Of a stretch of 64,000 nucleotides of DNA, positions 831 to 31,480 are shown one piece after another. This DNA comes from an uncultured Bacteroidales bacterium (GTDB lineage Bacteria; Bacteroidota; Bacteroidia; Bacteroidales; UBA932), in contig CAMZGD010000003.1 in assembly GCA_947306365.1 (NCBI GenBank), positions 1-64,000 of the forward strand, read 5' to 3'. The number at the start of each line of letters is the position of its first letter. Positions within the stretch are counted from its first letter, which is position 1. The notes beneath the pieces are model-generated. The model was not told the DNA's origin and searched no databases. It was given only the letters and a program-made list of their open reading frames with translations. The translations under genes were made by a program, and so were the position numbers.

Positions 831-2579
831 ATGTCCAGACCCCAGAAGATCGCGGCAGTCGTGATGACGGTGCTTACGGGTATCGCCATCTATGGTTTCT
901 TTGCCTTCCGGTATCCGTACCATCTCCATTTCCAGGAACAGTACCAGTTGTTCGAATGGACGGGCGCCTATTTCGCACAGGTGGCCGGGGTGCCCGGCGG
1001 ACTGGCAGACTGGCTGGGTCGCTGCCTCACCCAGTTTTTCTATTACGCCCCGCTGGGGGCTGCCCTGACGGCCCTGCTGCTCTGTGGCGTGCAGTTGCTT
1101 ACCTGGGCGGTTTCCGCCCGAAGGTCGCTGATGCTGTATGCGCTCAGTTTCCTCCCCGCACTGCTGCTGGCTGCGTTCTGCTGCGATGAGAACGCCCTGT
1201 TGGGGCCGGTCGTGGCCGTGGCGCTGTCGCTCGGTGCGGCGGCCCTGTGCCGGCGCGTCGTTCCGCAGAAAGGGCGCCGGCTGCTGGAACTGCTGCTGGT
1301 CCCGGTGCTGTATCTGGCCTGCGGACCGGTCTGCCTGCTCTTCGTGCTGGTGTCGGTGTGTCAGGAATTCGCCGGCGGGGAAGGGAAGCCCTGGCTTTTT
1401 GCGGCGGGGATGCTGGCCGTCGCCGCGGCCTGCCCTCTGGTCGCCAGCCGCCTCTTCCCGTATCCGCTCCACCGGCTGGTGGAAGGCGTCCACTACTACC
1501 GTTTCCATAACATCCTGCCTGGCATGCTGTATGCCGCTGTCCTGGCCGCGCTGCTGGTGGTTGCGGTATCCTGCCTGAAGGTGCGCAAACCGCTGCGGAG
1601 CCTGGTTCCCGCCGTCATCCTGTATGTCGTGCTGCTGGCTGCCGGGACATTCCTGACGCTGCGCACAGCCGATCCGGTGAAGGAGGAGTGGATGCGCTAC
1701 GACTTCATGGTCCGGATGCAGATGTGGAACCGGATCATGACGGCCGCCGACCGGCGCAATCCCGACAATCCCAAGACCGTTTCGTGCCTGAACCTGGCCC
1801 TGGCCAGGACGGGCCGCCTCCCCGACAGCCAGTTCACGTATTTCCAGAACGGGCCGGAGGGGCTGCTGCCCACCTATGAGGGCGATTTCACCAATCCGGT
1901 GTCCACCGGGGAGATTTATTGGCACCTGGGGATGGTCAATACCGCCCAACGCTATGCCTTCGAGGCGCAGGAAGCCATCCCGGATTTCCAGAAAAGCGCC
2001 CGCTTTTACCGGCGCCTCGCGGAAACGAATCTCGTGAACGGCGATACGACCGTTGCGATGAAATACCTGAATGTCTTGCAGCACACCACGTTCTACCGTG
2101 CCTGGGCCCGGGAGACCGCGGCGCTCGTCTCGGAGGGAACGCTTTTCGAGAAGCGTCCGGAACTCGCCCGCGCCCGTACCCTTCGCCTGCGGGAGCACGA
2201 CTTCCTCTTCAGCGAGACGGAGATGGACTCCATGCTGGGGCTCCTGAACGTGGAGCATCCCGAAAACACAATGGCCGTCGATTACCTGATGGCCTGGTGC
2301 CTGCTCCGTAAGGACCTGAACCGCTTCGCGGAATGTCTCCCGATGGTGACGGCGTCGCCGCTGCCGCAGGCCTATCAGGAAGCGCTCCTGCTGCTGTGGT
2401 TCTTCACCCACGACGGCTACGACGGGCTGCCGGCCTCGATCGCGCCGGGCAACGTGCAGCGGTTGAACCGCTTCCTGGCCGATGTCGATGCCGGGAAAAG
2501 CCGGGCCGCGATGGAGGCCGTCTATGGCAAGACCTACTGGTTCTACTATGTGTATCGCTACCAAAACCGTCCCGAGTAA
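831..2579 (+). CDS. DUF6057-like polytopic membrane protein with C-terminal soluble repeat-like region (cassette 1)
   Basis: 582 aa, many hydrophobic segments; PGGLADWL motif shared with 10455-11903; C-terminus RRLAETNLVNGD...YGKTYWFYYVYRYQN shared with 7400-8464. Confidence 0.7.
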   Translation: MSRPQKIAAVVMTVLTGIAIYGFFAFRYPYHLHFQEQYQLFEWTGAYFAQVAGVPGGLADWLGRCLTQFFYYAPLGAALTALLLCGVQLLTWAVSARRSLMLYALSFLPALLLAAFCCDENALLGPVVAVALSLGAAALCRRVVPQKGRRLLELLLVPVLYLACGPVCLLFVLVSVCQEFAGGEGKPWLFAAGMLAVAAACPLVASRLFPYPLHRLVEGVHYYRFHNILPGMLYAAVLAALLVVAVSCLKVRKPLRSLVPAVILYVVLLAAGTFLTLRTADPVKEEWMRYDFMVRMQMWNRIMTAADRRNPDNPKTVSCLNLALARTGRLPDSQFTYFQNGPEGLLPTYEGDFTNPVSTGEIYWHLGMVNTAQRYAFEAQEAIPDFQKSARFYRRLAETNLVNGDTTVAMKYLNVLQHTTFYRAWARETAALVSEGTLFEKRPELARARTLRLREHDFLFSETEMDSMLGLLNVEHPENTMAVDYLMAWCLLRKDLNRFAECLPMVTASPLPQAYQEALLLLWFFTHDGYDGLPASIAPGNVQRLNRFLADVDAGKSRAAMEAVYGKTYWFYYVYRYQNRPE

Positions 2580-2585
2580 CCCGCT

Positions 2586-4040
2586 ATGAAAAGAATCCTG
2601 TGCTTTGTGACGGTGATGTCGATGCTGGCGGCGTGCAGCCCCCGGGCGCGGCAGGCGACCCCTGCCGGAAAGCTGCCCGACATCTGGCCCGACTATGTCG
2701 GCGTGACCGTGCCTGAGACCGTCGCACCCCTCGATTTTACCCTGCCGGACGCCGATGCGCTCGACGTGCTGCTGACCGCGCCGGATGGCACGACGCTCCG
2801 CAGCGGCGGCAGGACAGCCACCCGTTTCTCCGAAAAGAGCTGGAGGGCGCTGCTGCAACGCAGTGCGGGCGATTCCCTCACGGTGACCGTCTTCGGCCGT
2901 TTCGGCGGTGCCTGGCAGCGATTCGAACCCTTCCGGATCCATGTCTCGAAGGATGCCATCGACTACGGCCTGACCTTCCGCCTGATCGAGCCGGGCTATC
3001 AGATCTACAGCCATATGGGCGTCTACGAGCGCGAACTCGCGTCCTACCGCCAGCGTGCCCTGCTGGAGAACACCCAGTTCGACGGCTGCGTGAACTGCCA
3101 CGCTTCCCGGCGCGACGATCCGGGCAGCTGGACCCTGCACATCCGCGGCAGCCACGGCGCCACGCTCCTGCGGCTCGACGGGGAGATCAAGGCCTACGAC
3201 ACCAAGACCGATTCCACCCTCGGCTTCTGCGTCTATCCGTACTGGCATCCCTCGGGCCGGTACATCGCCTATTCCACTAACAATACGCGCCAGGGATTCC
3301 ATATGCAGGCCGACAAGCTCATCGAAGTGTTCGACCTCGATTCGGACATACAGGTCTATGACATCGCACGGAACAAGCTGATTACGACGCCGCAGGTCAA
3401 GCAGCCGGACATCTGGGAGACCTTCCCGGTGTTTTCGGCCGACGGCCGGACGCTCTATTTCACCGCTGCCGCCAAGGTGGAGATTCCCGGCGAACTGCCC
3501 CAGTCGCGCTACAACCTGATGAAGGTGGACTTCGATCCGGAGACCGGCACCATCGGTACGGACGTGGAACTGCTGGTCGACGCCGCGTCGCAGGGCAGGA
3601 GCCTCTGCTTCCCGCGGCCGTCCTATGACGGGAAATACCTGCTATACACGCTGTGCGACTACGGCACGTTCCCCATCTGGCACCACGAGGCCGACCTGTG
3701 GCTGCTTGACCTGGAAACGGGGGAGACCCGGCCCCTCGACGAAGTCAACAGCGATGATACCGAAAGCTTCCACAACTGGAGCTCGAACAGCCGTTGGGTC
3801 GTATTCTCAAGCCGTCGCGACGATGGCCTGTTCACGCGACTGTACATCGCCCACATCGACGAAAACGGCCGGGCCGGCAAGCCCTTCCTGCTGCCGCAGC
3901 GCGATCCGTGGCACTATTACGATGACCTCTTCCGCTCCTACAACGTCCCCGAATTCGTCACCGGTCCCGTCCCGTTTGAAAGCATCCGCGCCCAGCAAGC
4001 CATCAATGCCTCCGAGCGCGTCTCCTTCGATTATCGCTGA
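2586..4040 (+). CDS. PD40/TolB-like beta-propeller lipoprotein with single CxxCH motif (cassette 1)
   Basis: Lipobox MLAACS; CVNCH; repeated PVFSADGRTLYF / WSSNSRWVVFSSRRDDG blades; paralogous to 5944-7425 and 9007-10458. Confidence 0.8.
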   Translation: MKRILCFVTVMSMLAACSPRARQATPAGKLPDIWPDYVGVTVPETVAPLDFTLPDADALDVLLTAPDGTTLRSGGRTATRFSEKSWRALLQRSAGDSLTVTVFGRFGGAWQRFEPFRIHVSKDAIDYGLTFRLIEPGYQIYSHMGVYERELASYRQRALLENTQFDGCVNCHASRRDDPGSWTLHIRGSHGATLLRLDGEIKAYDTKTDSTLGFCVYPYWHPSGRYIAYSTNNTRQGFHMQADKLIEVFDLDSDIQVYDIARNKLITTPQVKQPDIWETFPVFSADGRTLYFTAAAKVEIPGELPQSRYNLMKVDFDPETGTIGTDVELLVDAASQGRSLCFPRPSYDGKYLLYTLCDYGTFPIWHHEADLWLLDLETGETRPLDEVNSDDTESFHNWSSNSRWVVFSSRRDDGLFTRLYIAHIDENGRAGKPFLLPQRDPWHYYDDLFRSYNVPEFVTGPVPFESIRAQQAINASERVSFDYR

Positions 4041-4057
4041 TAGCGATTTATTTTCGA

Positions 4058-4149
4058 CAGTATATGCCTTGAAAAACATTGGCGCCCACGCCACAGGGGG
4101 AGGGGCCCATGCGTCAGCATGGGAGGGTGGTTTTTCAAGGCATATACTG
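4058..4149. repeat. Hairpin element E1: 20-bp perfect inverted repeat flanking G-rich core
   Basis: Left arm 4058-4077 cagtatatgccttgaaaaac, right arm 4130-4149 gtttttcaaggcatatactg; core gcgcccacgc...gggaggggccc-atgcgtcagcat-gggaggg. Confidence 0.9.
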
Positions 4150-4160
4150 CGAGCTAAACG

Positions 4161-5930
4161 CTAAGGCGCTGCGTCGTAGATGCTTTGTAACGTGTAGTCG
4201 GGATTCTTGTCGGTCGCGGCCTTGACGATGCGGCCGATGGCCTGTTCCGCACTTTCGTCCAGGAACATTCCCGTACCGTGGTCGATGTAGCCGTGCTTCT
4301 CCGCACCGATGCCCGAAGCGCCGTTGTCCCAGAGGTACATCGGCAGCAGCCGGTCGGCGGCAGCCTTGCAGAAATACTCGAAATAGTACAGCTGATAGGG
4401 GAAGTCCTCGGCTTTATGCCGGGAACAGCCGAATTCGCCCAGGTAGACCGGGATGTCCTTGTCCAGATAGGCGGCTTTCAGCTGGTCGAAGACCCACACC
4501 ACATTCTCCTCGTCCTTGTCGCTGCAGCGCTTGGCGGGATCGGCCGTATGGCCCCACTGGGAAACCAGCGGGTCGTTGAGCGTGTAGTTGTACGGGTCGT
4601 AGTCGTGGACGGCCACGATCAGGCGGTTGGCGCCGGTGTAGTCTTTCGGAAGCACGAGGCCGGTGATGGTGAAACCCGGGCTGGCGGCATAGCCGGGCAC
4701 GCCTAGCCAGCGCGTGGCGTTGTTGCCGCCGGTGGTCCGGACAGCGTCGACGAACACCTGGTTCCATTCGTTGAGCACCCTGTACTGGGCATCGGGATTG
4801 GTCTTGAACGCATCGCTCCAGCCCCAGCCGCCGTCCTGGATCTCGTTGAACGACTCGAACACGAGCCATTCTCCCTTGTCCTTGAAGCGGTTGGCAATCT
4901 GGGTCCAGACGCAGAAGATCTCGTCTTTCACCTTTTCGTTCTGCGTTGCGTTGTTGTACGCCTTGGCGATGTCGAGCCAATAGGTCTCGTCGTGGTGGGT
5001 GTTCACGATGGCGACCAGGCCGGCTTTTTCCGCATAGCCGACGATCTCTTCGACGCGGGCGAGCCATTTCTCTTCCAGCAGGTAGCCCGGCGCATCGCCG
5101 ATATGGCCCTGCCAGGTGACGCAGATGCGTACGGCCTTGAATCCCGCCGCTTTCACGCCGTCGAAGGTGGCCTGGGTGCATTTCGCCTTGACCCAGATGG
5201 TTTCCGCCGAGACGCCGTTGCTGATGGCGTCCATATGGTTGCCCATATTCCAGCCCGGGGCCATCGCATTGAAGACCATTTCGGGGGTTAGGGCGGTGGT
5301 GCCGGCGGTGGGAATGTCGCTGAAGGCATCTTCGGTGATTTTGACGGAAAGCTTGTCGTTTCCGCACTGGATGGTGACCGTACCGCTATGGGCGTCCTTC
5401 GTGCGGTTGGCGCCGGCGAAGAGGGTGACGGCAGTCTGGTGGGCGCCGTCGATCGTGCCGGCCTTTACGCCGCACCAGGCGGCGTCGGTACTGACCGTGG
5501 GCTGCTGCGAGGAAGTGACGGTCAGGACTGTCTCGCCGCCGAAGCGGTCGAAGGTCACGCTGGTCTTGTCGACGGCGAGCGCGACTTGCGGGACTTGCTG
5601 GGTGACCGGAATCATCAGGCTCTGCTTCTCGCCGATCACGCGGATGCTGCCGGACCGGTTGTCGGTTCCGGTGTTCTCCTTCGCCGTGACGGAGATCTTG
5701 AGGGTGTTCGAAGCAAAGGCGCCTTCGGAAAGGCTCAGCCAGGACGCGTCTGTGCTGACCGTTGGCTTGATGCCGCTCGTGATGGTCAGCTCCTTGGTGC
5801 CGCCTTTGGCGTCGAAGACCAGTTCGGCCGGGTTGGACACCAGCGTTACGGGCACCGGCTCGACCGGTTCTCCGCAGGCGGAGAGAATCAGGGCGGCGAG
5901 GGCCGCAAACAGGAAATGGGTCATTTTCAT
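4161..5930 (-). CDS. GH5 endoglucanase-type lipoprotein with two N-terminal BACON domains
   Basis: Lipobox LILSACG; two BACON-like repeats (TVSTDASWLSLSEGAF, TVSTDAAWCGVKAGT); GH5 motifs GWNMGNHMD, SFNEIQ, VYLGEFGC. ATG at 5930 preferred over TTG at 5951. Confidence 0.85.
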   Translation of the reverse strand: MKMTHFLFAALAALILSACGEPVEPVPVTLVSNPAELVFDAKGGTKELTITSGIKPTVSTDASWLSLSEGAFASNTLKISVTAKENTGTDNRSGSIRVIGEKQSLMIPVTQQVPQVALAVDKTSVTFDRFGGETVLTVTSSQQPTVSTDAAWCGVKAGTIDGAHQTAVTLFAGANRTKDAHSGTVTIQCGNDKLSVKITEDAFSDIPTAGTTALTPEMVFNAMAPGWNMGNHMDAISNGVSAETIWVKAKCTQATFDGVKAAGFKAVRICVTWQGHIGDAPGYLLEEKWLARVEEIVGYAEKAGLVAIVNTHHDETYWLDIAKAYNNATQNEKVKDEIFCVWTQIANRFKDKGEWLVFESFNEIQDGGWGWSDAFKTNPDAQYRVLNEWNQVFVDAVRTTGGNNATRWLGVPGYAASPGFTITGLVLPKDYTGANRLIVAVHDYDPYNYTLNDPLVSQWGHTADPAKRCSDKDEENVVWVFDQLKAAYLDKDIPVYLGEFGCSRHKAEDFPYQLYYFEYFCKAAADRLLPMYLWDNGASGIGAEKHGYIDHGTGMFLDESAEQAIGRIVKAATDKNPDYTLQSIYDAAP

Positions 5931-5943
5931 AAGGCAGCAGGTA

Positions 5944-7425
5944 TCATTCAAAAGATTCGGCCGGCACTTCCTTCCAGATGCGGCCGATTTCGCGGGCGTC
6001 GAAGCCTACGGGCGCGTCGCCCAGGTCCGGCACGTTGAAGGAACGCAGCATTTTGTCGTAGTAGTGGGGGTCCTTCTGCGGTAGCAGGAAGGGCCGGGTC
6101 ACCGTCCCGTCGTCGGCAACGTGGCTGAAATAGGGCTTTCCGAACATACCGTCGCCCCGTTTGGAGGCGAATACGAACCACTTGGAATCGGACGACCAGC
6201 TGTGGTAGGTGTCCGACTTGTCGTCGTTCACGACGGTCATCGGAACGGTCTCTCCGGTGCGGAGGTCCAGCAGGCAGAGGTCGCATTCGCGGTGATTGAT
6301 GGGGAAGGTCCCGTAGGCCGCGACCGTGAACAGCAGCCAGCGGCCGTCGGGCGAAGCCTTGGGATGACAGGCCGATGCATCGTGGGCGGCGGCGCTCCAC
6401 AGGGTGTCGGCCGGAGTGCCGAGGGCGCCCGTCCGGTCGTCGAACGGAATCCGCACGAGCGAGTACCGCAGCTGTTCCACCCCGGCGGGCAGCGTCCGGG
6501 CCTGAGCCGTGCAGTAATAGACGGAATGTCCGTCGGCAGAGAAGACGGGGAAGGTCTCGAAGACATCGTCCCGCGCCGTTTCCGGGAAGGTCAGCATCCG
6601 GTTTTCGTCGAAGTCGGCCACGCAGAGGTCGGAGGCCGTATCGTAGACTTCCATCCGGCGCCCGCCGTACGAATGCATCGTAGGGACGATGATGTTGGTG
6701 GAGAATACGCCGAAACGGCCGCCCGGGTGGATCTCTCCATAGACGGTGGGGGAGATCATCGCCGAATCGCGGAGCGTGAGCTTGCGCAGCGTTCCGCCCC
6801 GGTTGAGGATGGCGCCGCCACCCTCGCCCCGGAGGTAGAACATCGACAGGTCGCCGCGCCCCTGGGCGTGGATATGGCAGTTCATGCAGTGGTTGCCGGC
6901 GTTTCGCCAGTCGGAGATGAGGCGGGTATCGTAGTTCTCCAGGTTCCGTTCCACGATCTCAAGGTCGTCCCAGACCTCGAAGCCGGGTTCGATGAGACGG
7001 TAGGTGAGGTACGGGTCGATCCGGTCGGGACTTACGTGGATGCACCAGCGGAAGGAGACCGGGATGTCCCCGTCGCGCCAGGCCGACACCACTTCGATGT
7101 CGCCCTCCACGGCAGCGGCGAGCAGCCGCGTCCAGTCTTTCTGCTTCCAGACGACGTCCCGTCCCTTGCGGGTGAAGGAAAGGCCGCCGGCGGAGAAAGT
7201 GGTGGTGAACCGCCTCCCGGCAGGGTCGGTGTAGTAGAAATTGAGGGGTGCGATATTGCAGGGGACGGTGACGTCCTGGTAGTTGGGGAAGATGACCGAC
7301 ATGCGGTCGGTTCCCGTCCCGGCGGGGCGTACGTCGTACGGCCTGTCGCAGGAGAGCAGCAGGAGGAGGACCAGGCCGAAAAGCCCGCCGCGCAGGAGGT
7401 CAGTGCTGTTCATTCCGTACCGCAT
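5944..7425 (-). CDS. PD40/TolB-like beta-propeller lipoprotein with single CxxCH motif (cassette 2)
   Basis: CMNCHIH; PVFSADGHSVYYC; WSSDSKWFVFASKRGDGM; LLPQKDPHYYDKMLRSFNVPD. Confidence 0.8.
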   Translation of the reverse strand: MRYGMNSTDLLRGGLFGLVLLLLLSCDRPYDVRPAGTGTDRMSVIFPNYQDVTVPCNIAPLNFYYTDPAGRRFTTTFSAGGLSFTRKGRDVVWKQKDWTRLLAAAVEGDIEVVSAWRDGDIPVSFRWCIHVSPDRIDPYLTYRLIEPGFEVWDDLEIVERNLENYDTRLISDWRNAGNHCMNCHIHAQGRGDLSMFYLRGEGGGAILNRGGTLRKLTLRDSAMISPTVYGEIHPGGRFGVFSTNIIVPTMHSYGGRRMEVYDTASDLCVADFDENRMLTFPETARDDVFETFPVFSADGHSVYYCTAQARTLPAGVEQLRYSLVRIPFDDRTGALGTPADTLWSAAAHDASACHPKASPDGRWLLFTVAAYGTFPINHRECDLCLLDLRTGETVPMTVVNDDKSDTYHSWSSDSKWFVFASKRGDGMFGKPYFSHVADDGTVTRPFLLPQKDPHYYDKMLRSFNVPDLGDAPVGFDAREIGRIWKEVPAESFE

Positions 7426-8464
7426 AATAGAAATAGTACCAGTAGCTCTTTCCGAATTCCCCGGTCAGGTTGCGGCCGGAGCCGTTGTCGCGCTTGTAGC
7501 CGGCGACGAATCGGTTGAAACGCTCGAAGGTCGCCGGGGAAATCCGGTAGTGGCGGAGGTTCTCCTCCGTCATGCCGCCCTTGGCGGCGAGGAAGATGAG
7601 CATCGCTTCCTCGTACAGGCGCGAGCCCGTCAGCGACGGGTCGTAGTCTTCCACGAAGGCGTCGAGGTCTTTGCCCAGCAGGTCGAGGCACAGCAGGTAG
7701 TCCAGCGCCATCTTGTTGGAAGGGTTGGAATTCAGCAGGACGTGGAGGATGACGCGGGTCTGGTCCATTCCGTGGACCACGTCGAACTGCGGCAGCAGGG
7801 CACGTTTTTCCGCGATGCGCTGCCGGTAGGCCGGACTCCAGGCATCGGGCATCCGCTCCAGGGCCCACGCCCTGTCGTCCGGGGAATTGAGCAGGATGCG
7901 CAGGTATTTGGCGGCCGCCTCGAAATCGCCGGAGACCAGGTTGGTCTCCGCCAGCCGGCGCAGGTAGCGTGAGCCGGTGTGGGCGGGGGAGAACAGCATC
8001 CCCAGCATCGCGTCGCGTTCGGCCAGCGGCATATAGCCCAGGGCGAACCAGACGTCGCCGGCGCAGGCGATCTTGAACGGCGTGGACTGTGCGCCGACCG
8101 GAAGGAACAGCCCGCGCTCGAAAGGCTGGTAGTAGTCCATCAGCCGGTCGGCGAGCTGCCCGTTCATCGCGTTGGACAGGTTGTAATAGTATGTTCCGAT
8201 CTCGGATTTCCGGTCTTCCGCCGCCAGGGCGGCGACGGCCGTCCAGTTCTCCAGGGCGGCTTCGACCGCGAGGCCCATCGCCACTTCCGAAAGCTTGTCG
8301 GGATGGCCCCAGGCTTTCCGTGCCTCGGCGAGGGAAAGGCCGTTCTGGGCGGCGTATTTACGGAAGTAGGGGTACCTGACACAGAACGCAAGCTGGCTGG
8401 CACCGGCCGCCAGCAGGACTGCGGCCAGTGAGATCCATACGATGCGCCGGGTCTTCGGAGACAT
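7400..8464 (-). CDS. DUF6057-related protein, short form with one N-terminal TM segment (cassette 2)
   Basis: 354 aa; YLRRLAETNLVSGDFEAAAKYLRIL and FGKSYWYYFYYAVRNEQ align with C-terminal half of 831-2579. Confidence 0.65.
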   Translation of the reverse strand: MSPKTRRIVWISLAAVLLAAGASQLAFCVRYPYFRKYAAQNGLSLAEARKAWGHPDKLSEVAMGLAVEAALENWTAVAALAAEDRKSEIGTYYYNLSNAMNGQLADRLMDYYQPFERGLFLPVGAQSTPFKIACAGDVWFALGYMPLAERDAMLGMLFSPAHTGSRYLRRLAETNLVSGDFEAAAKYLRILLNSPDDRAWALERMPDAWSPAYRQRIAEKRALLPQFDVVHGMDQTRVILHVLLNSNPSNKMALDYLLCLDLLGKDLDAFVEDYDPSLTGSRLYEEAMLIFLAAKGGMTEENLRHYRISPATFERFNRFVAGYKRDNGSGRNLTGEFGKSYWYYFYYAVRNEQH

Positions 8465-8467
8465 GCC

Positions 8468-9010
8468 TTACGGTTGCTGGGGCAGGGGATACATGCTGAG
8501 GAGAAACGCGCCGGCGATGCTTTCTTCGCCCAGCGCGAGGGCCATCGCCCGGGTGCGTTCCCGGTAAGCCGCCTGCAGGGAATCAGCCAGGTCCTTCCGG
8601 CCGGCTTCGTACAGTTCGCCGTAGCGCAGGTTCTTCTCGATGGTCAGGTCTTTCCACACCTGGAGGCTGTCGTTCTGGGGCGTGCCACCGCCCGTGCTGT
8701 TCGGTCCGATGGTCACATAGATGTCGCCGGGTTCGGTGGCCACGAGCAGGTTCTGGCCCTTGTCGCGGTGCAGCCGATGGAGCCGGATGGCGCACATCCG
8801 GTGCTTGTTTCCCTTGAAGGAAAACTCGTGGTTGTGGATTTCCAGGGAATCGACGTTCTCGGGTTCCTCGTGCCCGACAGGAACAAGGAAGACGCGCACG
8901 CCCTCCAGGTCGTTGGAGGTGACGCGGCCGTGGATGCGGTACTGGTCACGTCCGCAGGACGATAATACGGCAGCCGCGAGAAGGGCGGCCAGAATCAGGG
9001 TTCTTTTCAT
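8468..9010 (-). CDS. DUF4369-like lipoprotein
   Basis: Lipobox AVLSSCG; IHGRVTSNDLEGVRVFLVPVG...VDSLEIHNHEFSFKG pattern; ATGA overlap with upstream gene. Confidence 0.6.
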   Translation of the reverse strand: MKRTLILAALLAAAVLSSCGRDQYRIHGRVTSNDLEGVRVFLVPVGHEEPENVDSLEIHNHEFSFKGNKHRMCAIRLHRLHRDKGQNLLVATEPGDIYVTIGPNSTGGGTPQNDSLQVWKDLTIEKNLRYGELYEAGRKDLADSLQAAYRERTRAMALALGEESIAGAFLLSMYPLPQQP

Positions 9011-10458
9011 GGCTTGACACTTGCTTTGACACGCTCGTCGGAGAATACTTCCCGGTAGACGCCGTGGGTGTCGAACGGGATCTTTTCTTTGGTGAAGTCA
9101 GGAACGTTGAAGGAATAGAGCGTGTTGTGATAGTATTTCCGGGGATTCCGCTGCGGCAGGACAAACGGTTTGGTGCAGTGTCCGTCCGCGTCGATGGAAG
9201 AGAGATACACCTGCACGTAGAGGCCGTCGTCGCGCCGGCTGCAGAAGAGGAACCAGCGGCTGTCGGAGCTCCAGTTGTGGAAACTCTCGGAGAAGGGGCT
9301 GTTGACTTCGTCGATCGGCCGGGTTTCGCCGGTGGACAGGTCCAGGAGCCAGAGGTCCGATTCCTTGTGGTCGATGGGGAAGACGCTGAAATCAGCCTGG
9401 TTGTACATAAGCCAGCGCCCGTCGTATGAAGGGCGGGGGAAGCTGACGCTGTGTCCTTCGCCGGCGGCCGGGATGAGCGTTTCGATGTCGCCCAGGGCGC
9501 CGGTTCCGGCGTCGAAGGAGGCATAGACCAGGTCGTATCGCACGCTGTCGACCTGCGCGGGAACGTCGAAGGCTTTTGCCCGGCAGAAGTAGAGCGTCTT
9601 TCCGTCGGGACTGAAGGAAGGGGAGGTCTCGAGGTATTCTTTCGTCGTGAAACGCGGGTCAACCACGAGCGAATGGTCGTCCATGTCCATCACGACCACG
9701 TCGGACGCCAGGTCGAACACTTCGATGGTGCGCTGGTCACCCGTCCAGAAGCACTGGCGGACGGGATTGATGGAGCCGGCGAACCAGCGTCCGCCCGGAT
9801 GCCAGTAGGTGTAGGCGACGTTGCCGATGGTGCTGTCCGTCTTGGTGGTCAGCCATTCGCGCCGGCCGTCCTGCTGGACGAGCGTCGCGCCGTGCCTGCC
9901 GCGAAGATGGAACATATATTGGGCGGGGTCGGTGGCGTTGGCGGTATGGCAGCCGACGCACTGGCCCGGCGTAAGGGTGCTTTCGATGATGGGATCCTCG
10001 CGGAAGTCGTGGATATTCCGCTGGTAGAGACCGATCCGGCTGTAGGTGGTGTAGCCGGGGGCTATTTTTCGATAGACGATGCCGTAGTCCGTCAGGGGCG
10101 CGTCGCTGACATACAGGATGAAATCGCGCCATTGGGTCCAGCGGCCGTCCCGGCGGCCGAGTACGGTGAACTGGAGCGTTCCGCCGGCGTTCTGTTCCGT
10201 CAGGCGGTGCCATGCCTTGACCGGGAAGGCGGCCCAGCGGCCCTTGACCTTGAGTTCGCCGCCCTTGCTGCCGGTGACCCGTACCAGCACGCGGTCGAAA
10301 TCTTCGGGAATGTTGAAGTCCAGCGGCGCGATGCCGGCGGGGATAGTGACGCCGATGTAGTCGGGATAGATGTCCGGTAGCTCGTCTACGTAGGTGGTGG
10401 TCCCGGTGCAGGCGGCCGCCAGCAGGAGCGTCGCGAGGAGATACAGGTACTTTTTCAT
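9007..10458 (-). CDS. PD40/TolB-like beta-propeller lipoprotein with single CxxCH motif (cassette 3)
   Basis: Start MKKYLYLLATLLLAAACTG inside the longer ORF; CVGCHTANATDP; WSSDSRWFLFCSRRDDGL; VLPQRNPRKYYHNTLYSFNVPDF; start overlaps stop of upstream gene as ATGA. Confidence 0.8.
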   Translation of the reverse strand: MKKYLYLLATLLLAAACTGTTTYVDELPDIYPDYIGVTIPAGIAPLDFNIPEDFDRVLVRVTGSKGGELKVKGRWAAFPVKAWHRLTEQNAGGTLQFTVLGRRDGRWTQWRDFILYVSDAPLTDYGIVYRKIAPGYTTYSRIGLYQRNIHDFREDPIIESTLTPGQCVGCHTANATDPAQYMFHLRGRHGATLVQQDGRREWLTTKTDSTIGNVAYTYWHPGGRWFAGSINPVRQCFWTGDQRTIEVFDLASDVVVMDMDDHSLVVDPRFTTKEYLETSPSFSPDGKTLYFCRAKAFDVPAQVDSVRYDLVYASFDAGTGALGDIETLIPAAGEGHSVSFPRPSYDGRWLMYNQADFSVFPIDHKESDLWLLDLSTGETRPIDEVNSPFSESFHNWSSDSRWFLFCSRRDDGLYVQVYLSSIDADGHCTKPFVLPQRNPRKYYHNTLYSFNVPDFTKEKIPFDTHGVYREVFSDERVKASVKP

Positions 10459-11903
10459 TCCGCGTCCTCCATCTGTTCGAGTTGTCCGAGCCGCTGCCAG
10501 GCTTCGTAATACTGGGCCGCCATGAAGTTGTCCTTGTTCTGGTTGTAGAGGATGGCCATCATCAGGTCGAGCGTGTTGTAGTTGGTGATGAAGTCGTCTT
10601 TGAAACGCACGTGCCGGATGTAGGCATAGACCGGATCGGACGCCACCGACGCCTCGTCCCGGATCAGGGCTTTGCGCGATTGGGCCCATTTGCGGTAGAA
10701 AAGGCTGTGGGACAGCATATCCAGGTACTTTTCGGCCCGGTCGTACCAGCCGTTGACGATGTTGCATTCGGCGATCCGGGCCATGAAGCGGCCGCTCTTG
10801 CGCCCGTTCTGGATGGATTCCTGCAGGTCGAAGCAGTACTGCAGGGTGATGTTGGGCATCCCCATCATCCAGAGCAGTTCCGCAGAGGTGATGTCCGACA
10901 GGTTGTCGCGGATGGAAGGCAGGACAAGCCCTCCGGTACCGCATTGGTAAAAATCGGTCAGGCGGCTTTCCAGCTGGCCCTGGGTAAAGAGACAGAAGTT
11001 GACCGAGCAGGCGCTGACCGGATTGTGCGGCTGGTATTTCTCCGCCCGGCGGATGACGTCGGCATAGCGCTCGTGCCGGATGAGCCAGTCATAGGCCAGC
11101 GTCTCGTGCGTGTCTTTGTCATAGGTAGCGCGGACGCCGAAGAAAGTGCCGGCCGCCAGCAAAAGGACGGTGATGGCGCCGGAAATGACCGGGCGTGCGA
11201 GCCGGAAACGCAGGTGGCACGCCAGGATACAGAGGAAGGTGACGGCCGGAATGACGATCTGCAGGACCGGCAGCGTTTCCACGAGCCGGTAGTAATTGAT
11301 GCCGAACAGGGCGTCCCGCAGGGGATATTGCGGGGCCAGGAGCCGGTATTCGGCGTAGAAAGTGAGTGCGGTCCAGCCCAGCATCAGCAGGTCGGGGAGC
11401 TTGCGCCCATCCAGCACCGAAAGCAGGATGGGGATGACGATGACCGGGCCGGCCAGCCACCACCCCAGGGGAATGAGCCAGAGCCGGTGCCAGCCTGCTT
11501 TCAGGAACAGTGGACAGGCCCACACGGCAAGCAGGATGGCGACGGCGAAGCTGGGCAGCACGTCGACGTCGCCCTGATAGACCAGCAGGAGCAGGGAGGG
11601 GATGAGGGAAAAGACGTAAGCGCCTTTGCCCACACGCCAGACGGCGCGTTGCAGCAGGACGGCGAGCAGGGCCATCACCAGGGCTCCGGCCCAGCGGATG
11701 TCGAAGAACTGTACCAGGAATTCCGACAGCCAGTCGGCCAGGCCGCCCGGCAGCGCCAGACGCTCCAGGAGATAGTCCCAGGTAAAGAGGAACAGCTGGT
11801 TCTGCTCCTGATAGGACAGGTCCTGCGGGTACAGCCACATCCAGAAAGCAAAGACGAAGGCCCCCAGCAGGGTTGTCAGAAAGAACCGGTATCGTTTATC
11901 CAT
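10455..11903 (-). CDS. DUF6057-like polytopic membrane protein (cassette 3)
   Basis: YQEQNQLFLFTWDYLLERLALPGGLADWL matches 831-2579 N-terminus; IAECNIVNGWYDRAEKYLDMLSHSLFYRKWA matches its C-terminal region. Confidence 0.7.
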   Translation of the reverse strand: MDKRYRFFLTTLLGAFVFAFWMWLYPQDLSYQEQNQLFLFTWDYLLERLALPGGLADWLSEFLVQFFDIRWAGALVMALLAVLLQRAVWRVGKGAYVFSLIPSLLLLVYQGDVDVLPSFAVAILLAVWACPLFLKAGWHRLWLIPLGWWLAGPVIVIPILLSVLDGRKLPDLLMLGWTALTFYAEYRLLAPQYPLRDALFGINYYRLVETLPVLQIVIPAVTFLCILACHLRFRLARPVISGAITVLLLAAGTFFGVRATYDKDTHETLAYDWLIRHERYADVIRRAEKYQPHNPVSACSVNFCLFTQGQLESRLTDFYQCGTGGLVLPSIRDNLSDITSAELLWMMGMPNITLQYCFDLQESIQNGRKSGRFMARIAECNIVNGWYDRAEKYLDMLSHSLFYRKWAQSRKALIRDEASVASDPVYAYIRHVRFKDDFITNYNTLDLMMAILYNQNKDNFMAAQYYEAWQRLGQLEQMEDAE

Positions 11904-19137: not shown

Positions 19138-20016
19138 ATGGCAAACGTACTGCGGGAAATCACTTCCATTACCGACAAGGACTGCTTCTACATCGTGGAG
19201 CGGCACAAGAGCGAATTCACGTGGCCCATCCATTCCCACGAGGAATATGAGCTCAATTTCATCGAACGGGGCCGGGGTGTGCGTCGCGTGGTGGGTGACA
19301 GCATCGAGGAAATCGGGGACTATGAACTGACGCTCATCACGGGCGACGGCCTGGAGCACGCCTGGGAGCAGGGACGCTGTTCCGAGCCGGACATCCGGGA
19401 GGTCACCGTACAGTTCTCGCCGCGGCTGCTGGCTCCCGACCTCCTGGCACGCAATCAGTTCGCGTCGATCCGGAAGATGTTCGACCAGGCCCGGATGGGA
19501 CTGACCTTTTCGATGCCGGCCATCATGCGGGTCTACAACCTACTGGATACCCTGGCCTCCCGGGAGGAACGGATGGAGCAGTTCCTTGACATGCTGAAGA
19601 TCCTGTATGAGCTGTCGCTGGATACGGGTTCCCGTACCCTGGCGTCCCATTCCTTCGCCAAGACCGGCTACGACCTGGAGAGCCGCCGCGTCAACAAGGT
19701 GAAGGAGTACATCGCCCGTCACTACCGGGAGGAAATCAAGCTCGAGCAGCTCGCAGCCCTGGTAGCGATGGCCCCGTCCGCCTTCAGCCGCTTCTTCAAA
19801 CAGCGCACCGGCCGTGGTCCCGTCGACTATATCATCGATGTGCGGCTGGGGGTCGCGGCCCGGATGCTGGTTGATACAAGTACTTCAGTCAGTGAGATTT
19901 GCTATGCATGTGGCTTCAATAATCTCTCCAATTTCAACCGGACCTTCAAGGCACGCCGCGGCTATACGCCCCGCGACTTCCGGGCGCTGTTCACCAAGAA
20001 CCGCGTGTTCGTCTGA
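19138..20016 (+). CDS. AraC family transcriptional regulator (cupin + HTH)
   Basis: N-term cupin-like HSHEEYELNFIERGRG; C-term VSEICYACGFNNLSNFNRTFKARRGYTPRDFR. Confidence 0.93.
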   Translation: MANVLREITSITDKDCFYIVERHKSEFTWPIHSHEEYELNFIERGRGVRRVVGDSIEEIGDYELTLITGDGLEHAWEQGRCSEPDIREVTVQFSPRLLAPDLLARNQFASIRKMFDQARMGLTFSMPAIMRVYNLLDTLASREERMEQFLDMLKILYELSLDTGSRTLASHSFAKTGYDLESRRVNKVKEYIARHYREEIKLEQLAALVAMAPSAFSRFFKQRTGRGPVDYIIDVRLGVAARMLVDTSTSVSEICYACGFNNLSNFNRTFKARRGYTPRDFRALFTKNRVFV

Positions 20017-20030
20017 GGCTTTGTTAAAAT

Positions 20031-20055
20031 AGTATCATTTTTGGGTAATTATATG
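20031..20055 (+). promoter_or_regulatory. Putative regulator operator B upstream of mannanase operon
   Basis: AGTATCATTTTTGGGTAATTATATG, matches operator A at AGTATCAT, TTGGG, AATT. Confidence 0.5.
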
Positions 20056-20079
20056 TTGGTGAACGCCGTGAAAATGATA

Positions 20080-20087
20080 TAAATTTG
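20080..20087 (+). promoter_or_regulatory. Putative -7 box TAAATTTG
   Basis: TAnnTTTG match upstream of ATG 20110. Confidence 0.55.
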
Positions 20088-20109
20088 CATACGCCTTATT
20101 TATATCATC

Positions 20110-22350
20110 ATGACAATCGTTCGCAAAGCTCTGGTCTGGACCGTGCTGGCCCTGCTGCTGGCGGGGTGCTCGCCGAAAAGTCCTTTCGTCACCGTCAGGG
20201 ACGGCCGTTTCGTCCGCGACGGGAAGCCTTACACCTACGTCGGCACCAATTTCTGGTATGGCCCTATCCTGGCCTCGGAAGGGCGGGGCGGGAATATGCA
20301 GCGCCTGCGGCGTGAGCTCGACACGCTCAAGGCCCTGGGGATTGAGAATCTCCGCGTGCTGGTCGGCGGCGATGGTGCCGACGGTGTGTATTCGCGCGTG
20401 GAACCCACGCTCCAGACCGCTCCGGGTGTCTATAACGATACGCTTCTGGTCGGCCTCGACCGCTTCCTTGTCGAGTTGGGGAAGCGCGGCATGCAGGCTG
20501 TCCTGTATGTCAACAACTCCTGGGAATGGACTGGCGGCTACGGCCAGTACCTGGAGTGGGCGACGGGCGAGAAGACCCTCATCCCCCTTGTGGACGGCTA
20601 CTGGCCCTTCATGCAACAGATGCGGAAGTTCCAGACCAGCACGGCGGCGCAGCAACTGTATTTCGACCACTTGCGGAGCATCGTCTCGCGCGTGAATTCC
20701 ATCACGGGAAAGCCGTATAAGGACGACCCGGCCATCTTCGCCTGGCAGCTCGGCAACGAGCCGCGCTGTTTCTCCGACGACCCGGAGGTCCGCGCGGGCT
20801 TCATCGGCTGGATGACGGAGGCCGCCCGCATCATCAAGGAAATCGACGGGAACCATCTGCTTTCCACGGGCAACGAAGGCTTGATGGGTTGCGAAGAGGA
20901 TCCGGAACTCGTCCGGGCCGTGAACGAGATTCCCGGCATCGACTATATGACCATCCACATCTGGCCCTACAACTGGAGCTGGGTGCGTCCCGACGCACTG
21001 ACGGAAGACCTGGATGCCGCCATTGCCAAAACCGGCGATTACCTGGCTTTCCACAAGGCGCTGGCCTCGGAGCTGGGCCTGCCCGTCGTGGCGGAGGAAT
21101 TCGGTTTTCCGCGCGACGGTTTCCAGTCGTGGATGGGAGCGCCCACCACGGCACGTGACGCGTATTATGCGTATGTGTTCTCGCGGGTCGGCGCGGAACT
21201 GGACGGCGCGAACTTCTGGGGCTGGAGCGGATTCGCCGTCCCGCTGCACGAGCAGTGGGAAAGCGGTGACCCTTATACCGCCGATCCTTCGCAGGAGGCA
21301 CAGGGCCTGAACGGCGTCTATGTGTCCGACAGCACGGTCGACATCATTGCGGCGGCCAACGGAAAGCCGTGCGCCGAAGCTGACGGCAAGATCCTGTACG
21401 GCCACCAGGACGACCTCTCCTACGGCCACGCCTGGGTGGTGACCGATGTGGAGAACGACCCGCTCACGCGTTCCGACGTCAAGGACGTGACCGGGCATTA
21501 TCCGGCCGTACTGGGTTTTGACCTGGGCGGCATCGAACGCGGCGATTCCTGCAATCTCGACGGCGTTCCCTTCGACCTGATCCGCAAGGCCGCCCTGACG
21601 CACATCGGACGCGGCGGCGTGGTGACTTTTTCGTGGCATCCGCGCAATCCGCTGACCGGCGGCGATGCCTGGGACATTTCTTCTGCGGCGGTCGTCGCCT
21701 CCGTCCTGCCGGGCGGTTCGCAGCACGACAAGTTCATGAAATGGCTGGATTGGGCCGGCGACTTCCTGGCCGGCCTTGACGGCGCCCCGGCCATTTTCCG
21801 TCCCTGGCACGAGAACATCGGCAGTTGGTTCTGGTGGGGAGGAAAGCTCTGTACGGCAGAAGAATACAAGGCGTTGTTCCGGATGACGCACGATTATCTG
21901 GTGAAAGAACGGGGCCTGACCAACCTTTCGTGGTGCTATTCCCCGAACGGCCCCGTCAGCCCAGAGGACTATCTGTCGCGCTATCCGGGTGACGATTGTG
22001 TGGACCTGCTGGGCACGGACATCTATGAATATGTGGGCCCCGGCGGCCTGGAAGCCGCCGGCAGGCGCTTCGTCTCCCAGGTGCGGGGGATGCTGCTCAC
22101 GCTGCAGGACATCGCCGCGGAGCACGGCAAGCGGACCTGTCTCTCCGAGACCGGGCTGGAAGGCCTGAAGGATCCGCACTGGTGGAGCGAAGTGCTCTAT
22201 CCCGCCATCCGGGGAACCGGCATCGAATACGTGCTGACCTGGCGCAACGCGCACGACAAGCCGGGGCACTTCTATGCGCCCTGGAAAGGATTTGAAAATG
22301 AGGAAGACTTCCGGCAGTTCGCCGGCAAAGAAGATATCGTACTGTTATGA
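20110..22350 (+). CDS. Two-catalytic-domain mannanase lipoprotein: GH5 (mannanase-like) + GH26
   Basis: Lipobox LLLAGCS; GH5 mannanase-like [28 protein letters not shown]; then GH26-like [38 protein letters not shown]. Confidence 0.88.
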
Positions 22351-23504
22351 CCTATGATGAAAGACTGGCCTGGCTGCGCGTGGCGCACCGGCAACTGATC
22401 GAACTGCCGAACGCCCCCGTGGAGGGGAATGGCGTATATGCGCGGTACAGGCATCCTGTGCTCACGGCGAAGCATGCCCCGCTGGAATGGCGCTACGACC
22501 TGCACCCGGATACGAATCCCTATTTGATGGAGCGTTTCGGCATCCACGCCGTGCTGAACGCCGGCGCGATCAAGTGGCAGGGAAAATACGTCGTGGTCGC
22601 CCGGGTGGAAGGCGCCGACCGCAAGTCGTTCTTCGCGGTGGCGGAAAGCCCCAACGGCGTGGACCATTTCCGCTTCTGGCCGCGTCCGATAACCCTGCCC
22701 GAATACGGCGAGCCCGCCACAAACGTCTATGACATGCGCCTGACCGCGCACGAGGACGGCTGGATCTACGGCATCTTCTGCGTGGAGCGCAAGGATCCGG
22801 CCGCGCCCGCCGGCGACCTCTCGTCCGCCGTGGCGGCGGCCGGCATCGCCCGCACGCACGACCTGGTCAACTGGGAACGCCTGCCCGACCTCGTGTCGAA
22901 GAGCCAGCAGCGCAACGTGGTGCTGCACCCCGAATTCGTGGACGGCAAGTATGCGCTGTACACGCGCCCGCAGGACGGATTCATCGACGCGGGAAGCGGC
23001 GGCGGCATCGGCTGGGCCCTGGTGGACAGCATGGAGCACGCCGTCGTGACGGACGAAAAGATCATCAACTTCCGTCATTATCACACGGTCAAGGAGGTGA
23101 AGAACGGGGAGGGACCGCATCCCATCCGTACGCCGCAGGGCTGGCTGCACCTGGCCCACGGCGTGCGCGGCTGCGCCAGCGGCCTCCGCTATGTGCTGTA
23201 TCTCTATATGACCGCGCTGGACGATCCGGCACGCGTCATCGCCGAGCCGGCCGGCTTCTTCATGGCGCCGGAAGGCCCCGAATACATCGGCGACGTGATG
23301 AACGTCCTCTTCTCGAACGGCTGGATCTGCGATCCGGACGGCAGTGTGTTCATCTACTACGCCTCTTCCGACACCCGCCTGCACGTGGCCACTTCCACGG
23401 TCGACCGGCTGGTGGACTACTGCCTGCATACGGCGCCGGACGGCCTCCGCACGGGCCTGTCCGTTGAAACCTTGAACAAACTGATCGACCGAAACCAGCA
23501 ATAA
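22347..23504 (+). CDS. GH130 mannosylglucose phosphorylase-like
   Basis: [59 protein letters not shown] overlap with mannanase. Confidence 0.9.
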
Positions 23505-23506
23505 CC

Positions 23507-24952
23507 ATGAAAAAACTTATCCTTCTCGGTATTTTCCTGTCGCTCGCATCGCTGCTCCAGGCGCAGCCGTTGCAGCTGGCACATCTGTTTTCCGACCATA
23601 TGGTGCTGCAGCAGCAGACCTCCGCTCCGGTTTGGGGCTGGGGCGCGCCCGGCAAGACCGTGACCGTCCGGACATCCTGGAACGGCGCGACCGTCCGGAC
23701 GAAAGTCGCGGATGACGGTTTCTGGCGGGTGAACGTCGCTACCGGCGCGGCCGGCGGGCCCTATCGGCTCATCGTCCGCTGCGGCAGTGAAACGCTGGCT
23801 GTCGAAGACGTCGCGCTCGGTGAAGTCTGGGTGTGCAGCGGCCAGTCGAATATGGAAATGCCGATGCGCGGCTTCGGCTTCCAGGAAATCGAAGGCTTTC
23901 GCGAAAACCTGCTCGAAGCGGGGGAATATGCGTCCCGCATCCGTCTGTTCGACGTCAAGTCCGACACCACGCACGTGGTGCAGGCCGATGTGGCCAACGG
24001 ATGGGAGCCGACCGTCCCGTCGGTTTATTGCAAGACATCCGCAGTGGCGTATCTGTTCGCCAAGCGGATCACCCGCAACCTCGGCGTGCCCGTGGGCATC
24101 ATCGTGAACGCCTGGGGCGGCAGCCGCATCGAACCCTGGATGACGATGGAATCCGTGGAGAATGCCGGGATCCCGGCGGAAGAACTGGCCCGGATCAAGG
24201 AACTGCACGAGATTGCGGGGCTGTGGCCCAACGGCGTGGCGACCTGCTGGAACGGCCGTGTCGCGCCGGTTGCCGGCTATGCAGCCAGGGGCTTCCTGTG
24301 GTATCAGGGCTGCTCCAACCTGGGACAGGCCTGCTATGACAAGCTGCAGGCCGCCATGGTGAAACTGTGGCGCGAGGCCTGGGGGCAGGGCGACCTGCCG
24401 TTCATCTATGCGCTGCTGGCACCGCACGACTACGGCAATGCCGACGGCCGGCAGCGTCCGGCCTTCGTGGAAACGCAGATGCACGTCCAGGAACTCGTCC
24501 CGAACTGCTATGCCGTGTGCCTGGAGACGCTGGGTGCGAAGCACACCATCCATCCCAACCGCAAGCAGGAAGTGGCCGATATGATGGCGCTCCGGGCGCT
24601 CAGCGCGGCTTACGGGCAGGATCCGGGCGTGGTGATCGACTATCCGACGCCGCGCTCCATCGAATACCTCGACGACGGCCGCGTGAAGATCCTATTCAAC
24701 AACGTATGGTCGAACCTGCAGTCGATCGAGAACCGCACGATTACGGGCTTCGAGCTGGCCGGTGAGGACCGCGTGTTCCACCTGGCCGAAGCCGAGGTGG
24801 ACTGGGACGGCCAGAGCGTCTATGTCCGGTGCCCCGATGTGCCGCATCCCGTGGCGGTCCGGTACAGCTACCGCAACCTGATGGACACCAACCTGAAGAC
24901 TTCCTACGGCATTCCCGCCCCGCCGTTCCGGAGCGACGACTGGCCCCTGTAA
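23507..24952 (+). CDS. Sialate O-acetylesterase-like (SASA) carbohydrate esterase
   Basis: LFSDHMVLQQQTSAPVWGWGAPG; GEVWVCSGQSNMEMPM; GFLWYQGCSN. Confidence 0.88.
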   Translation: MKKLILLGIFLSLASLLQAQPLQLAHLFSDHMVLQQQTSAPVWGWGAPGKTVTVRTSWNGATVRTKVADDGFWRVNVATGAAGGPYRLIVRCGSETLAVEDVALGEVWVCSGQSNMEMPMRGFGFQEIEGFRENLLEAGEYASRIRLFDVKSDTTHVVQADVANGWEPTVPSVYCKTSAVAYLFAKRITRNLGVPVGIIVNAWGGSRIEPWMTMESVENAGIPAEELARIKELHEIAGLWPNGVATCWNGRVAPVAGYAARGFLWYQGCSNLGQACYDKLQAAMVKLWREAWGQGDLPFIYALLAPHDYGNADGRQRPAFVETQMHVQELVPNCYAVCLETLGAKHTIHPNRKQEVADMMALRALSAAYGQDPGVVIDYPTPRSIEYLDDGRVKILFNNVWSNLQSIENRTITGFELAGEDRVFHLAEAEVDWDGQSVYVRCPDVPHPVAVRYSYRNLMDTNLKTSYGIPAPPFRSDDWPL

Positions 24953-24974
24953 TATCTACTAAAACCAAGTAACC

Positions 24975-27758: not shown

Positions 27759-27767
27759 TTCTATGAC

Positions 27768-27907
27768 GAAGGAAGCGTTGTTTCCATTTCAAGACTACGG
27801 ACCCTATGGGTCCTATCCCTCCCAAAACCGGCGAACCGGTTTCGGGCCCCTCCCACTCACGGCTGCGTGGGCGCAGACGGTCTTGAAATGGAAACAACGC
27901 TTCCTTC
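27768..27907. repeat. Hairpin element E2: 28-bp perfect inverted repeat flanking G-rich core
   Basis: Left arm 27768-27795 gaaggaagcgttgtttccatttcaagac; right arm 27880-27907 its exact reverse complement; core (minus strand) gcgcccacgc...gggaggggccc-gaaaccggttcgccggtttt-gggaggg. Confidence 0.92.
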
Positions 27908-29997
27908 TGGCCATTTTGCTTATCTTTCCACTGCCGGCACTGGCGCAGGAGATGCTGTTCGACGACGGCTGGAAGTTCGCGTTCGGCGACGCCGCTTCAC
28001 CGGAAAAGGATTTCGGCAGGGGGACGGAATATTTCAACTATCTCACAAAAGCGGCGTCGATCCATAACGAGGGACCGTATGCCGTAAAGTTCGACGATTC
28101 GGCCTGGAAGCCGGTGCAGCTGCCGCACGACTGGGTGGTGGACCTGCCGTTTTCGCCGGAAGCTTCGCACAGCCACGGTTACAAGACGGTGGGCTGGCGC
28201 TGGCCGGCGACCAGCGTGGGCTGGTACCGGAAGCATTTCACGGTGCCGGCCGATGCGCTCGGGAAACCGGTCTCGCTCCGGTTCGACGGCATCTTCCGCG
28301 ATTCGGACATCTGGGTGAACGGCTTCTGGCTGGGCGGCGAGCGCAGCGGTTACACGTCGGCCACCTACGCCATCGCCGAATACCTGAATTATGGCGGCGA
28401 CAATGTGGTCGTTGTCCGGGCCGACGCCTCATTCGAGGAGGGCTGGTTCTACGAAGGGGCCGGCATCTACCGCCACGTCTGGCTTACGGTCGGCGACGAG
28501 CCCGAAAAACCGCAGCGGCCGCTGCCGAAGATCGAAATCGATCCCGACCGCGGTATCCTCCTGGACGGCCAGCCCATCCGCATCCACGGCGCGAACGTCC
28601 ACCAGGACCACGCCGGCGTGGGCGCGGCCATCCCAGACGCGCTGTATGTCTGGCGCATCAAACAATTGAAAGCATACGGTTTCAACGCCATCCGGACCGC
28701 CCACAACCCCGCGTCACCCGCGCTGCTCGACATCTGCGACAGCCTGGGGATGTACGTGCTGGAGGAGACACGCCTGATGGGCGTGAACGAGGCACAGCTC
28801 GCGCCGCTCCGCAAGATGATCGAACGCGACCGGCATCATCCCTGCATCATCCTGTGGGGCATCGGCAACGAGGAGTGGGGCATCGAATGGAACGATAAGG
28901 GCGAACGCATCGCCCGTACGATGACGGAATACTGCCACGCCATCGACCCGACGCGGCCGGTGTTGGTCGCAACCAGCAGCGGCCCGGAAGTGATCAAGGG
29001 CGCCGACGTGGCCGGTTACAACTATATCCTGCAGAATCCGGTGGACCGGCACCGGGCCGATTATCCCGACCGCGTGGCCGTCGGCACGGAGGAGACCTCC
29101 GGCTGCGGCACCCGCGGCGTGTATTTCGACGATCCGGCGAACGGGCGGATGGCGGCCCTCAACCGCAGCCCCCAGGGACCGGACAGCCTGTACAACTGCA
29201 TCGAACGGGGCTGGCAGTTCTATGAAGCCCGCCCCTGGCTGGCGGGCCTGTTCTACTGGACGGGCTTCGACTACCGGGGCGAGCCGAATCCGCTGGTCTA
29301 TCCTGCAACGGGCTCCGAATTCGGCATCTTCGACTATTGCGGCTTTCCCAAGGACGAGGCGTATTACCTGAAGGCCTGGTGGACGGACGAGCCGCTCGTG
29401 CACATCCTGCCGCACTGGAACCTCGAAGGCCACGAAGGGGAGGAAGTCTCCGTGTGGGTGTACGGCAACTGCGAAGAGGTGGCGCTTTCCGTCAACGGGC
29501 GGAACCTGGGCCGGAAGCGGATGCCCCGCGGCGGTCACCTGGAATGGACGGCGGTCTACAGGCCCGGACGTGTCCGGGCGGTGGGCTACCGGAATGGCCG
29601 GAAGGTCTGTGAGGAGACCGTCTGGACGGCCGGTTCTCCCGAACGCCTGCAGGCGGCGGCCGACCGGACGCTGCTCCGGGCGGACGGGCACGACGTGGCG
29701 GTGGTGAACCTTTCCGTGCGGGATGGCCGCGACCGCTTCGTCCCGACGGCCTGTCTGCCCGTGCAGGTGACGGTGGAGGGCCCTGCCCGGATCCTGGGCG
29801 CCGGCAACGGCGATCCGGCCTTCCGCGCCGCCGAGCGTCCCGCGGATCCCGCCGACCGGACTTTCTGCATCGATACCTTCAACGGACTGGCCCAGGTGCT
29901 CATCCAGGGAACCGGCGAAGCGGGGGAGGCCAGGGTCCTGCTTGCTGGTCCCGGCATTCCCGAAAACGTGGTGCCCCTCCGTTTTGCCAACGAATGA
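27883..29997 (+). CDS. GH2 beta-galactosidase-like glycosidase
   Basis: GH2 motifs IHGANVHQDHAGVG, NAIRTAHNPASPALLDICDSLGMYVLEET, GIGNEEW. In-frame TTG 27883 gives signal peptide MKWKQRFLLAILLIFPLPALAQ; ORF-track start is ATG 27763. Confidence 0.85.
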   Translation: MKWKQRFLLAILLIFPLPALAQEMLFDDGWKFAFGDAASPEKDFGRGTEYFNYLTKAASIHNEGPYAVKFDDSAWKPVQLPHDWVVDLPFSPEASHSHGYKTVGWRWPATSVGWYRKHFTVPADALGKPVSLRFDGIFRDSDIWVNGFWLGGERSGYTSATYAIAEYLNYGGDNVVVVRADASFEEGWFYEGAGIYRHVWLTVGDEPEKPQRPLPKIEIDPDRGILLDGQPIRIHGANVHQDHAGVGAAIPDALYVWRIKQLKAYGFNAIRTAHNPASPALLDICDSLGMYVLEETRLMGVNEAQLAPLRKMIERDRHHPCIILWGIGNEEWGIEWNDKGERIARTMTEYCHAIDPTRPVLVATSSGPEVIKGADVAGYNYILQNPVDRHRADYPDRVAVGTEETSGCGTRGVYFDDPANGRMAALNRSPQGPDSLYNCIERGWQFYEARPWLAGLFYWTGFDYRGEPNPLVYPATGSEFGIFDYCGFPKDEAYYLKAWWTDEPLVHILPHWNLEGHEGEEVSVWVYGNCEEVALSVNGRNLGRKRMPRGGHLEWTAVYRPGRVRAVGYRNGRKVCEETVWTAGSPERLQAAADRTLLRADGHDVAVVNLSVRDGRDRFVPTACLPVQVTVEGPARILGAGNGDPAFRAAERPADPADRTFCIDTFNGLAQVLIQGTGEAGEARVLLAGPGIPENVVPLRFANE

Positions 29998-30001
29998 CGC
30001 T

Positions 30002-31468: not shown

Positions 31469-31480
31469 TTGCATAACATC

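Follow-up and report, generated by a model that had tools for sequence, protein, structure and literature searches.

Gene pairs in the hemicellulose locus

The window, that is, the whole stretch of 64,000 nucleotides that was analyzed, comes from an uncultured Bacteroidales bacterium whose genome (2.14 Mb in 34 contigs) is 87% complete. An initial annotation had placed in it three cassettes, each composed of a gene for a DUF6057-like protein (D) and a gene for a CxxCH-containing propeller lipoprotein (P), and the corresponding open reading frames are present at 831-4040 (cassette A), 5944-8464 (cassette B), and 9007-11903 (cassette C). D lies 5′ of P in the direction of transcription in all three. 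Cassette A, on the forward strand, encodes a D protein of 582 aa (831..2579; 562.6 bits against PF19529; AF2 pLDDT 92.8) and a clade 3 P protein of 484 aa (2586..4040), with its lipobox Cys at C17 and its CVNCH motif at residues 168-172. Cassettes B and C are on the reverse strand. D of cassette B (7400..8464; 354 aa; 292.0 bits) lacks the membrane bundle and consists of a single N-terminal anchor and the TPR part, matching profile positions 235-569; the start of its propeller gene (5944..7425; CMNCH; assigned to clade 2 by motif and alignment) overlaps the end of the D gene by 26 nt. D of cassette C (10455..11903; 482 aa; 358.3 bits) matches profile positions 8-477 of 569 and is thus without the C-terminal ~90 positions, and its gene overlaps that of the clade 3 propeller (9007..10458; CVGCH) by 4 nt. 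All three D proteins score above the PF19529 cut-off of 29.8 bits, which places them in the DUF6057 family.

The three propellers have PD40 matches with E values of 1e-9 to 7e-13, and copies B and C are, respectively, 37% and 46% identical to copy A. The motifs initially reported for them were all recovered, namely one CxxCH each, a (H/Y)(I/L)RG element, a WSS(N/D)S(R/K)W blade, and an LPQ...S(Y/F)NVP tail. The elements said to be shared by the partners are less uniform, as the third partner has RIAECNIVNG rather than the RLAE form, and PGGLADWL is missing from the middle partner together with the entire membrane bundle. Three features had been overlooked. A GH5 lipoprotein with two BACON domains is encoded between cassettes A and B (4161..5951, reverse strand; PF00150, 1.4e-51), and a DUF4369 lipoprotein (PF14289), which recurs next to cassettes in 18 of 82 loci, is encoded between B and C (8468..9010, reverse strand). 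Another contig (C7) holds a fourth cassette, with P before D, which adjoins purA and is not in a PUL.

The window cassettes are part of a β-mannan-type PUL reaching ~39 kb. Its core, on the reverse strand, comprises genes for a lipoprotein (11972-13465), SusD (13491-15323), and SusC (15308-18940). This SusC carries a C-terminal peptidoglycan-binding OmpA domain (PF00691) after a KVVEKEVVREVPVEVV linker, and similar SusC-OmpA fusions were seen in three other loci (L025, L081, and L070). The remainder of the hemicellulose locus (19138..39253, forward strand) encodes an AraC regulator, a GH5-like+GH26 protein, GH130, a SASA esterase, GH31, GH2, xylulokinase, xylose isomerase, a symporter, GH3, an AGE epimerase, and an MFS protein; GH2, the kinase, the isomerase, the symporter, and the MFS protein were identified by reading the sequence. 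The GH5-like+GH26 protein (20110-22350, forward strand) is a bimodular mannanase in which a GH5-like first half without a Pfam call precedes GH26. The xylulokinase, xylose isomerase, and sugar symporter genes (29942-34248, forward strand) lie with GH31 and GH3 amid the mannan-type run, which suggests joint use of mannan and xyloglucan.

Pairing of D and P across genomes

Eighty other loci were gathered by similarity to the propeller, a set that is biased towards close relatives. Considering only genes away from contig ends, a D on the same strand lay within 300 nt of 154 of 157 propellers, and an adjacent same-strand P was present for 152 of 153 DUF6057 genes. D preceded P in 158 of 160 pairs, and 152 of 159 pairs overlapped or were separated by at most 40 nt, with 50 showing a 4-nt overlap. 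Because of the bias in these loci, we also searched 150 Bacteroidaceae genomes that had been chosen independently of them. P was found in 79 genomes and a strong D (E < 1e-30, a threshold fixed after the scores had been seen) in 79; 78 had both, one had P alone, one had D alone, and 70 had neither (Fisher p = 7e-41). Those weaker D matches that were checked belong to a form of DUF6057 that is solitary and short (~385 aa). The sole strong D without P (genome G259; locus L117, 9622-11436) is full-length and directly follows glgB, the gene for glycogen branching enzyme.

Outside Bacteroidaceae, only four of 296 other genomes of the phylum had a match at E ≤ 1e-12, and in two of these a different PD40 protein was matched, and only in part. 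The module is therefore widespread in Bacteroidaceae and rare elsewhere in the phylum. Recurrence in 80 other loci and in two genomes of other Bacteroidota classes puts the pairing far beyond chance. D and P are a real unit, inherited as a fixed pair, in gut and rumen Bacteroidales.

Co-inheritance and mixed sets of modules

Sequence distances between propellers were correlated with those between their partners (r = 0.96), whereas swapping partners within loci gave at most 0.44. Since physical linkage by itself could produce such a correlation, and neighboring genes co-inherit without binding, this result speaks for a stable module and not for binding. Clades 1, 2, and 3 of P matched those of D nearly one to one, with two to three mismatches among 160. 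The initial proposal of a fixed two-protein module is thus upheld by adjacency, co-occurrence in genomes, co-inheritance, and gene spacing.

A clade 3 module was combined with a clade 1 or clade 2 module in 64 of 77 loci; the window has two clade 3 modules and one of clade 2. Most loci thus pair two unlike modules, and the copies belong to separate old clades, which rules out recent tandem duplication. The module had been called duplicated, and this holds in the deep sense that old, distinct clades are kept as sets. Deployment of unlike modules together points to a possible mixed complex containing two or more heme-type propellers.

Predicted architecture and location

The AF2 model of D from cassette A has eight or nine predicted N-terminal membrane helices followed by a C-terminal TPR-like helical array, and the best 50 Foldseek matches were mostly TPR proteins, with E > 0.04. 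Many clade 2 D proteins are only ~352 aa long and have no membrane bundle, an indication that the propeller may need just the TPR part. The bundle itself might be a GT-C-like transferase whose substrate is recognized by the propeller. Between TM1 and TM2 it has a structured loop with helices predicted at residues 29-37, 45-52, and 57-71, in which P55 and Q68 are invariant and E36 is conserved in most members. This explanation is improbable, as conservation of the acidic position does not extend to clade 1 in that column, no Pfam GT-C profile matched any of 26 DUF6057 members, no GT-C protein was among the best 50 Foldseek matches, and copy B is still paired although it has no bundle.

A lipobox Cys is present in 99% of propellers. 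At least two acidic residues at positions +2 to +5, the lipoprotein export signal, were found in 2% of 167 propellers versus 84% of 49 SusD proteins from the same loci. Display of the propeller at the surface, one of the locations first suggested, is therefore unlikely, and a role as a surface glycan-binding protein of the SusE/F or SGBP kind is not supported on the same grounds. KTRR precedes the single anchor of D in cassette B, and by the positive-inside rule its TPR part would then be outside, in the periplasm.

TolB-type blades in the propeller, the TPR part of its partner, and SusCD neighbors together recall TolB and TPR scaffolds, and by analogy the pair could help PUL lipoproteins or SusCD to assemble, fold, or be exported. 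We consider this little more probable than a transferase. About half of the sampled Bacteroidaceae genomes do without the propeller, such a function leaves the CxxCH motif and the Ccs association unexplained, and the propellers scored 20.7-24.0 bits against the TolB profile (TIGR02800), far from its equivalog cut-off of 343, so membership in TolB was rejected. No relative of solved structure was found by sequence for D, and none beyond TolB-like blades for P. Foldseek matches of the propeller were only general propellers, S9 peptidases, and cytochrome cd1, with TM-scores below 0.5 to the query. A role in anti-phage defense was also rejected, with zero PADLOC families for the five proteins searched.

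Association with polysaccharide loci

For 57-58 of 82 loci, the retrieved stretch encoded SusC or SusD, and cassettes are often within hemicellulose (e.g., mannan) gene clusters; the proposed attachment to a polysaccharide locus is borne out by these neighbors. Prevotella strains usually have the order SusC-SusD-small lipoprotein-D-P-D-P. In Bacteroides muris, another Bacteroides, and a Parabacteroides, a DUF4369 gene and D-P-D-P are followed by GH26-GH130-MFS-epimerase, and another Bacteroidaceae genome has the same mannan arrangement plus GH3, SusC, and SusD. In a Prevotella aff. ruminicola locus (L061), the D-P-D-P block is followed by genes for an ABC exporter of the peptidase type and an HlyD-like protein (12274-15781).

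The GH26-GH130-MFS-epimerase genes are those of the mannobiose/mannosylglucose route of B. fragilis, whose BfMan26 and mannosylglucose phosphorylase pathway is cited in the study of the B. ovatus BoManPUL (PMC5217682). This route was tested in Segatella copri (PMC12704710), and PUL32 of B. cellulosilyticus is a β-mannan PUL (PMC13357471). The portions of PMC5217682 and PMC13357471 available to us do not mention the propeller/DUF6057 pair, nor was it found by keyword in the available text of mannan and Segatella PUL papers. β-Mannan is the best-documented substrate, in some lineages only.

These neighbors also fit another explanation, in which the propeller would bind or hand over oligosaccharides in the periplasm near an inner-membrane importer, held there by D, and would have a structural (disulfide or metal), heme-free CxxCH. 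The SusC/SusD context and the adjoining mannan steps in Bacteroides and Parabacteroides favor it, and sets of paralogues could fit different oligosaccharides. The cassette beside purA, outside any PUL, argues against it, and no carbohydrate-binding family was matched.

The CxxCH motif and cytochrome c synthases

All 171 intact full-length propellers contain CxxCH, and the four matches that lack it are fragments no longer than 148 aa. The motif is also present in the homologues from two other classes, and its His is as invariant as both Cys. A distant PD40 protein of 702 aa with CANCH and no DUF6057 neighbor (L139, 1609-3717) possibly represents a broader family that gave rise to the propellers.

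Among the 150 genomes, PF01578 (CcsA/ResC) was detected above its cut-off in 77 of 79 propeller carriers versus 52 of 71 non-carriers (p = 2e-5, uncorrected for kinship). One of the two exceptions (G154) has ResB, bringing the carriers with a synthase to 78 of 79; some of the non-carriers without PF01578 may be rescued by ResB in the same way. In the other exception (G168), which has four propellers, neither PF01578 nor ResB was found. Across the order, PF01578 was present in all 14 genomes with DUF6057 above the cut-off and in 97 of 117 overall. It was found in 27 of 30 genomes of the fetched loci, mostly MAGs, and ResB was likewise not found in the other three. The source genome has two cytochrome c maturation loci. 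G259, the genome with a strong D alone, has no detectable cytochrome c synthase; it has kept DUF6057 and lacks the propeller. The short solitary DUF6057 form occurs in many Bacteroidaceae (L090-L103 and others), including genomes without a cytochrome c synthase. The heme-type motif that was first noticed in three proteins is therefore invariant, and its carriers more often have cytochrome c maturation. The initial proposal thus withstood both checks made of it here, on adjacency of the two genes and on conservation of CxxCH.

In the AF2 model of the cassette A propeller (mean pLDDT 92.1), residues 168-175, which include CxxCH, are in a β-strand, with pLDDT of 84-91 there. The CxxCH of heme c is usually in a helical turn, and the predicted strand favors a heme-free handover protein. 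An invariant His points the other way, as a plain disulfide has no need of it, and so does the association with cytochrome c synthase. Overall, a heme-free handover protein is a possible but distinctly less favored explanation. No distal ligand was identified; H221 and H366 are ~99% conserved among the propellers but could serve otherwise. No redox partner enzyme was seen in the locus. On these sequence features, we judge the odds slightly in favor of heme binding by the propeller.

A model for the D/P module

The reading that we prefer starts from the fixed pairing, the co-inheritance, the invariant CxxCH, the Ccs association, and the PUL context of most sampled loci. D would sit in the inner membrane and present its TPR-like domain to the periplasm, where it would hold the propeller lipoprotein. 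The propeller probably carries one covalent heme c on CxxCH, which the CcsBA (System II) synthase would attach. Two or more unlike modules per locus, one of clade 3 with one of clade 1 or 2, would form a mixed complex. Within PULs, this complex could act on or sense a periplasmic hemicellulose step, most likely by redox chemistry or redox sensing, a role that is speculative. We assign a probability of roughly 0.5 to this model of an inner-membrane TPR scaffold with a periplasm-facing, probably heme-c propeller, working as unlike pairs. Its boldest extension is doubtful: a periplasmic redox or heme-sensing complex of a new class, in which TPR membrane anchors carry unlike pairs of heme-c propeller lipoproteins. 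Such a complex would link the uptake of hemicellulose to redox state or perform an undescribed oligosaccharide oxidation or reduction in anaerobes.

In the current view, a PUL consists of import proteins and enzymes that cleave sugars. With a widespread, strictly paired component bearing a heme-type motif in about half of the 150 Bacteroidaceae genomes, current models of glycan use by gut and rumen bacteria would be missing a part. Should the propeller be heme-free, the pair would still be an unexplained conserved component of hemicellulose loci. The original observation is confirmed, and in a stronger form than first stated. We found no paper naming DUF6057 and, in the literature on PULs, propellers, and cytochromes, nothing on the pair, which is undescribed in the literature searched.

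Comparison with known systems

The propeller shares with TolB its PD40 blades, an N-terminal domain followed by a propeller, and a periplasm-facing side; it differs from TolB in being a lipoprotein, in having CxxCH, and in not being part of a tol operon. It has CxxCH in common with cytochrome cd1 nitrite reductase and other c-type cytochromes, and the cd1 propeller is similar at low score. Unlike c-type cytochromes, it has no separate helical cytochrome domain, and its motif is in a predicted strand of the first blade. The membrane partners in the window are clear members of DUF6057 (PF19529; 292-563 bits), and their pairing sets them apart from the short relatives of ~385 aa, which are solitary. 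The closest parallel to the surroundings of the module is with Bacteroides β-mannan PULs, whose GH26, GH130, epimerase, and MFS genes also lie beside cassettes in the window and in four other loci (L079, L084, L085, and L126).
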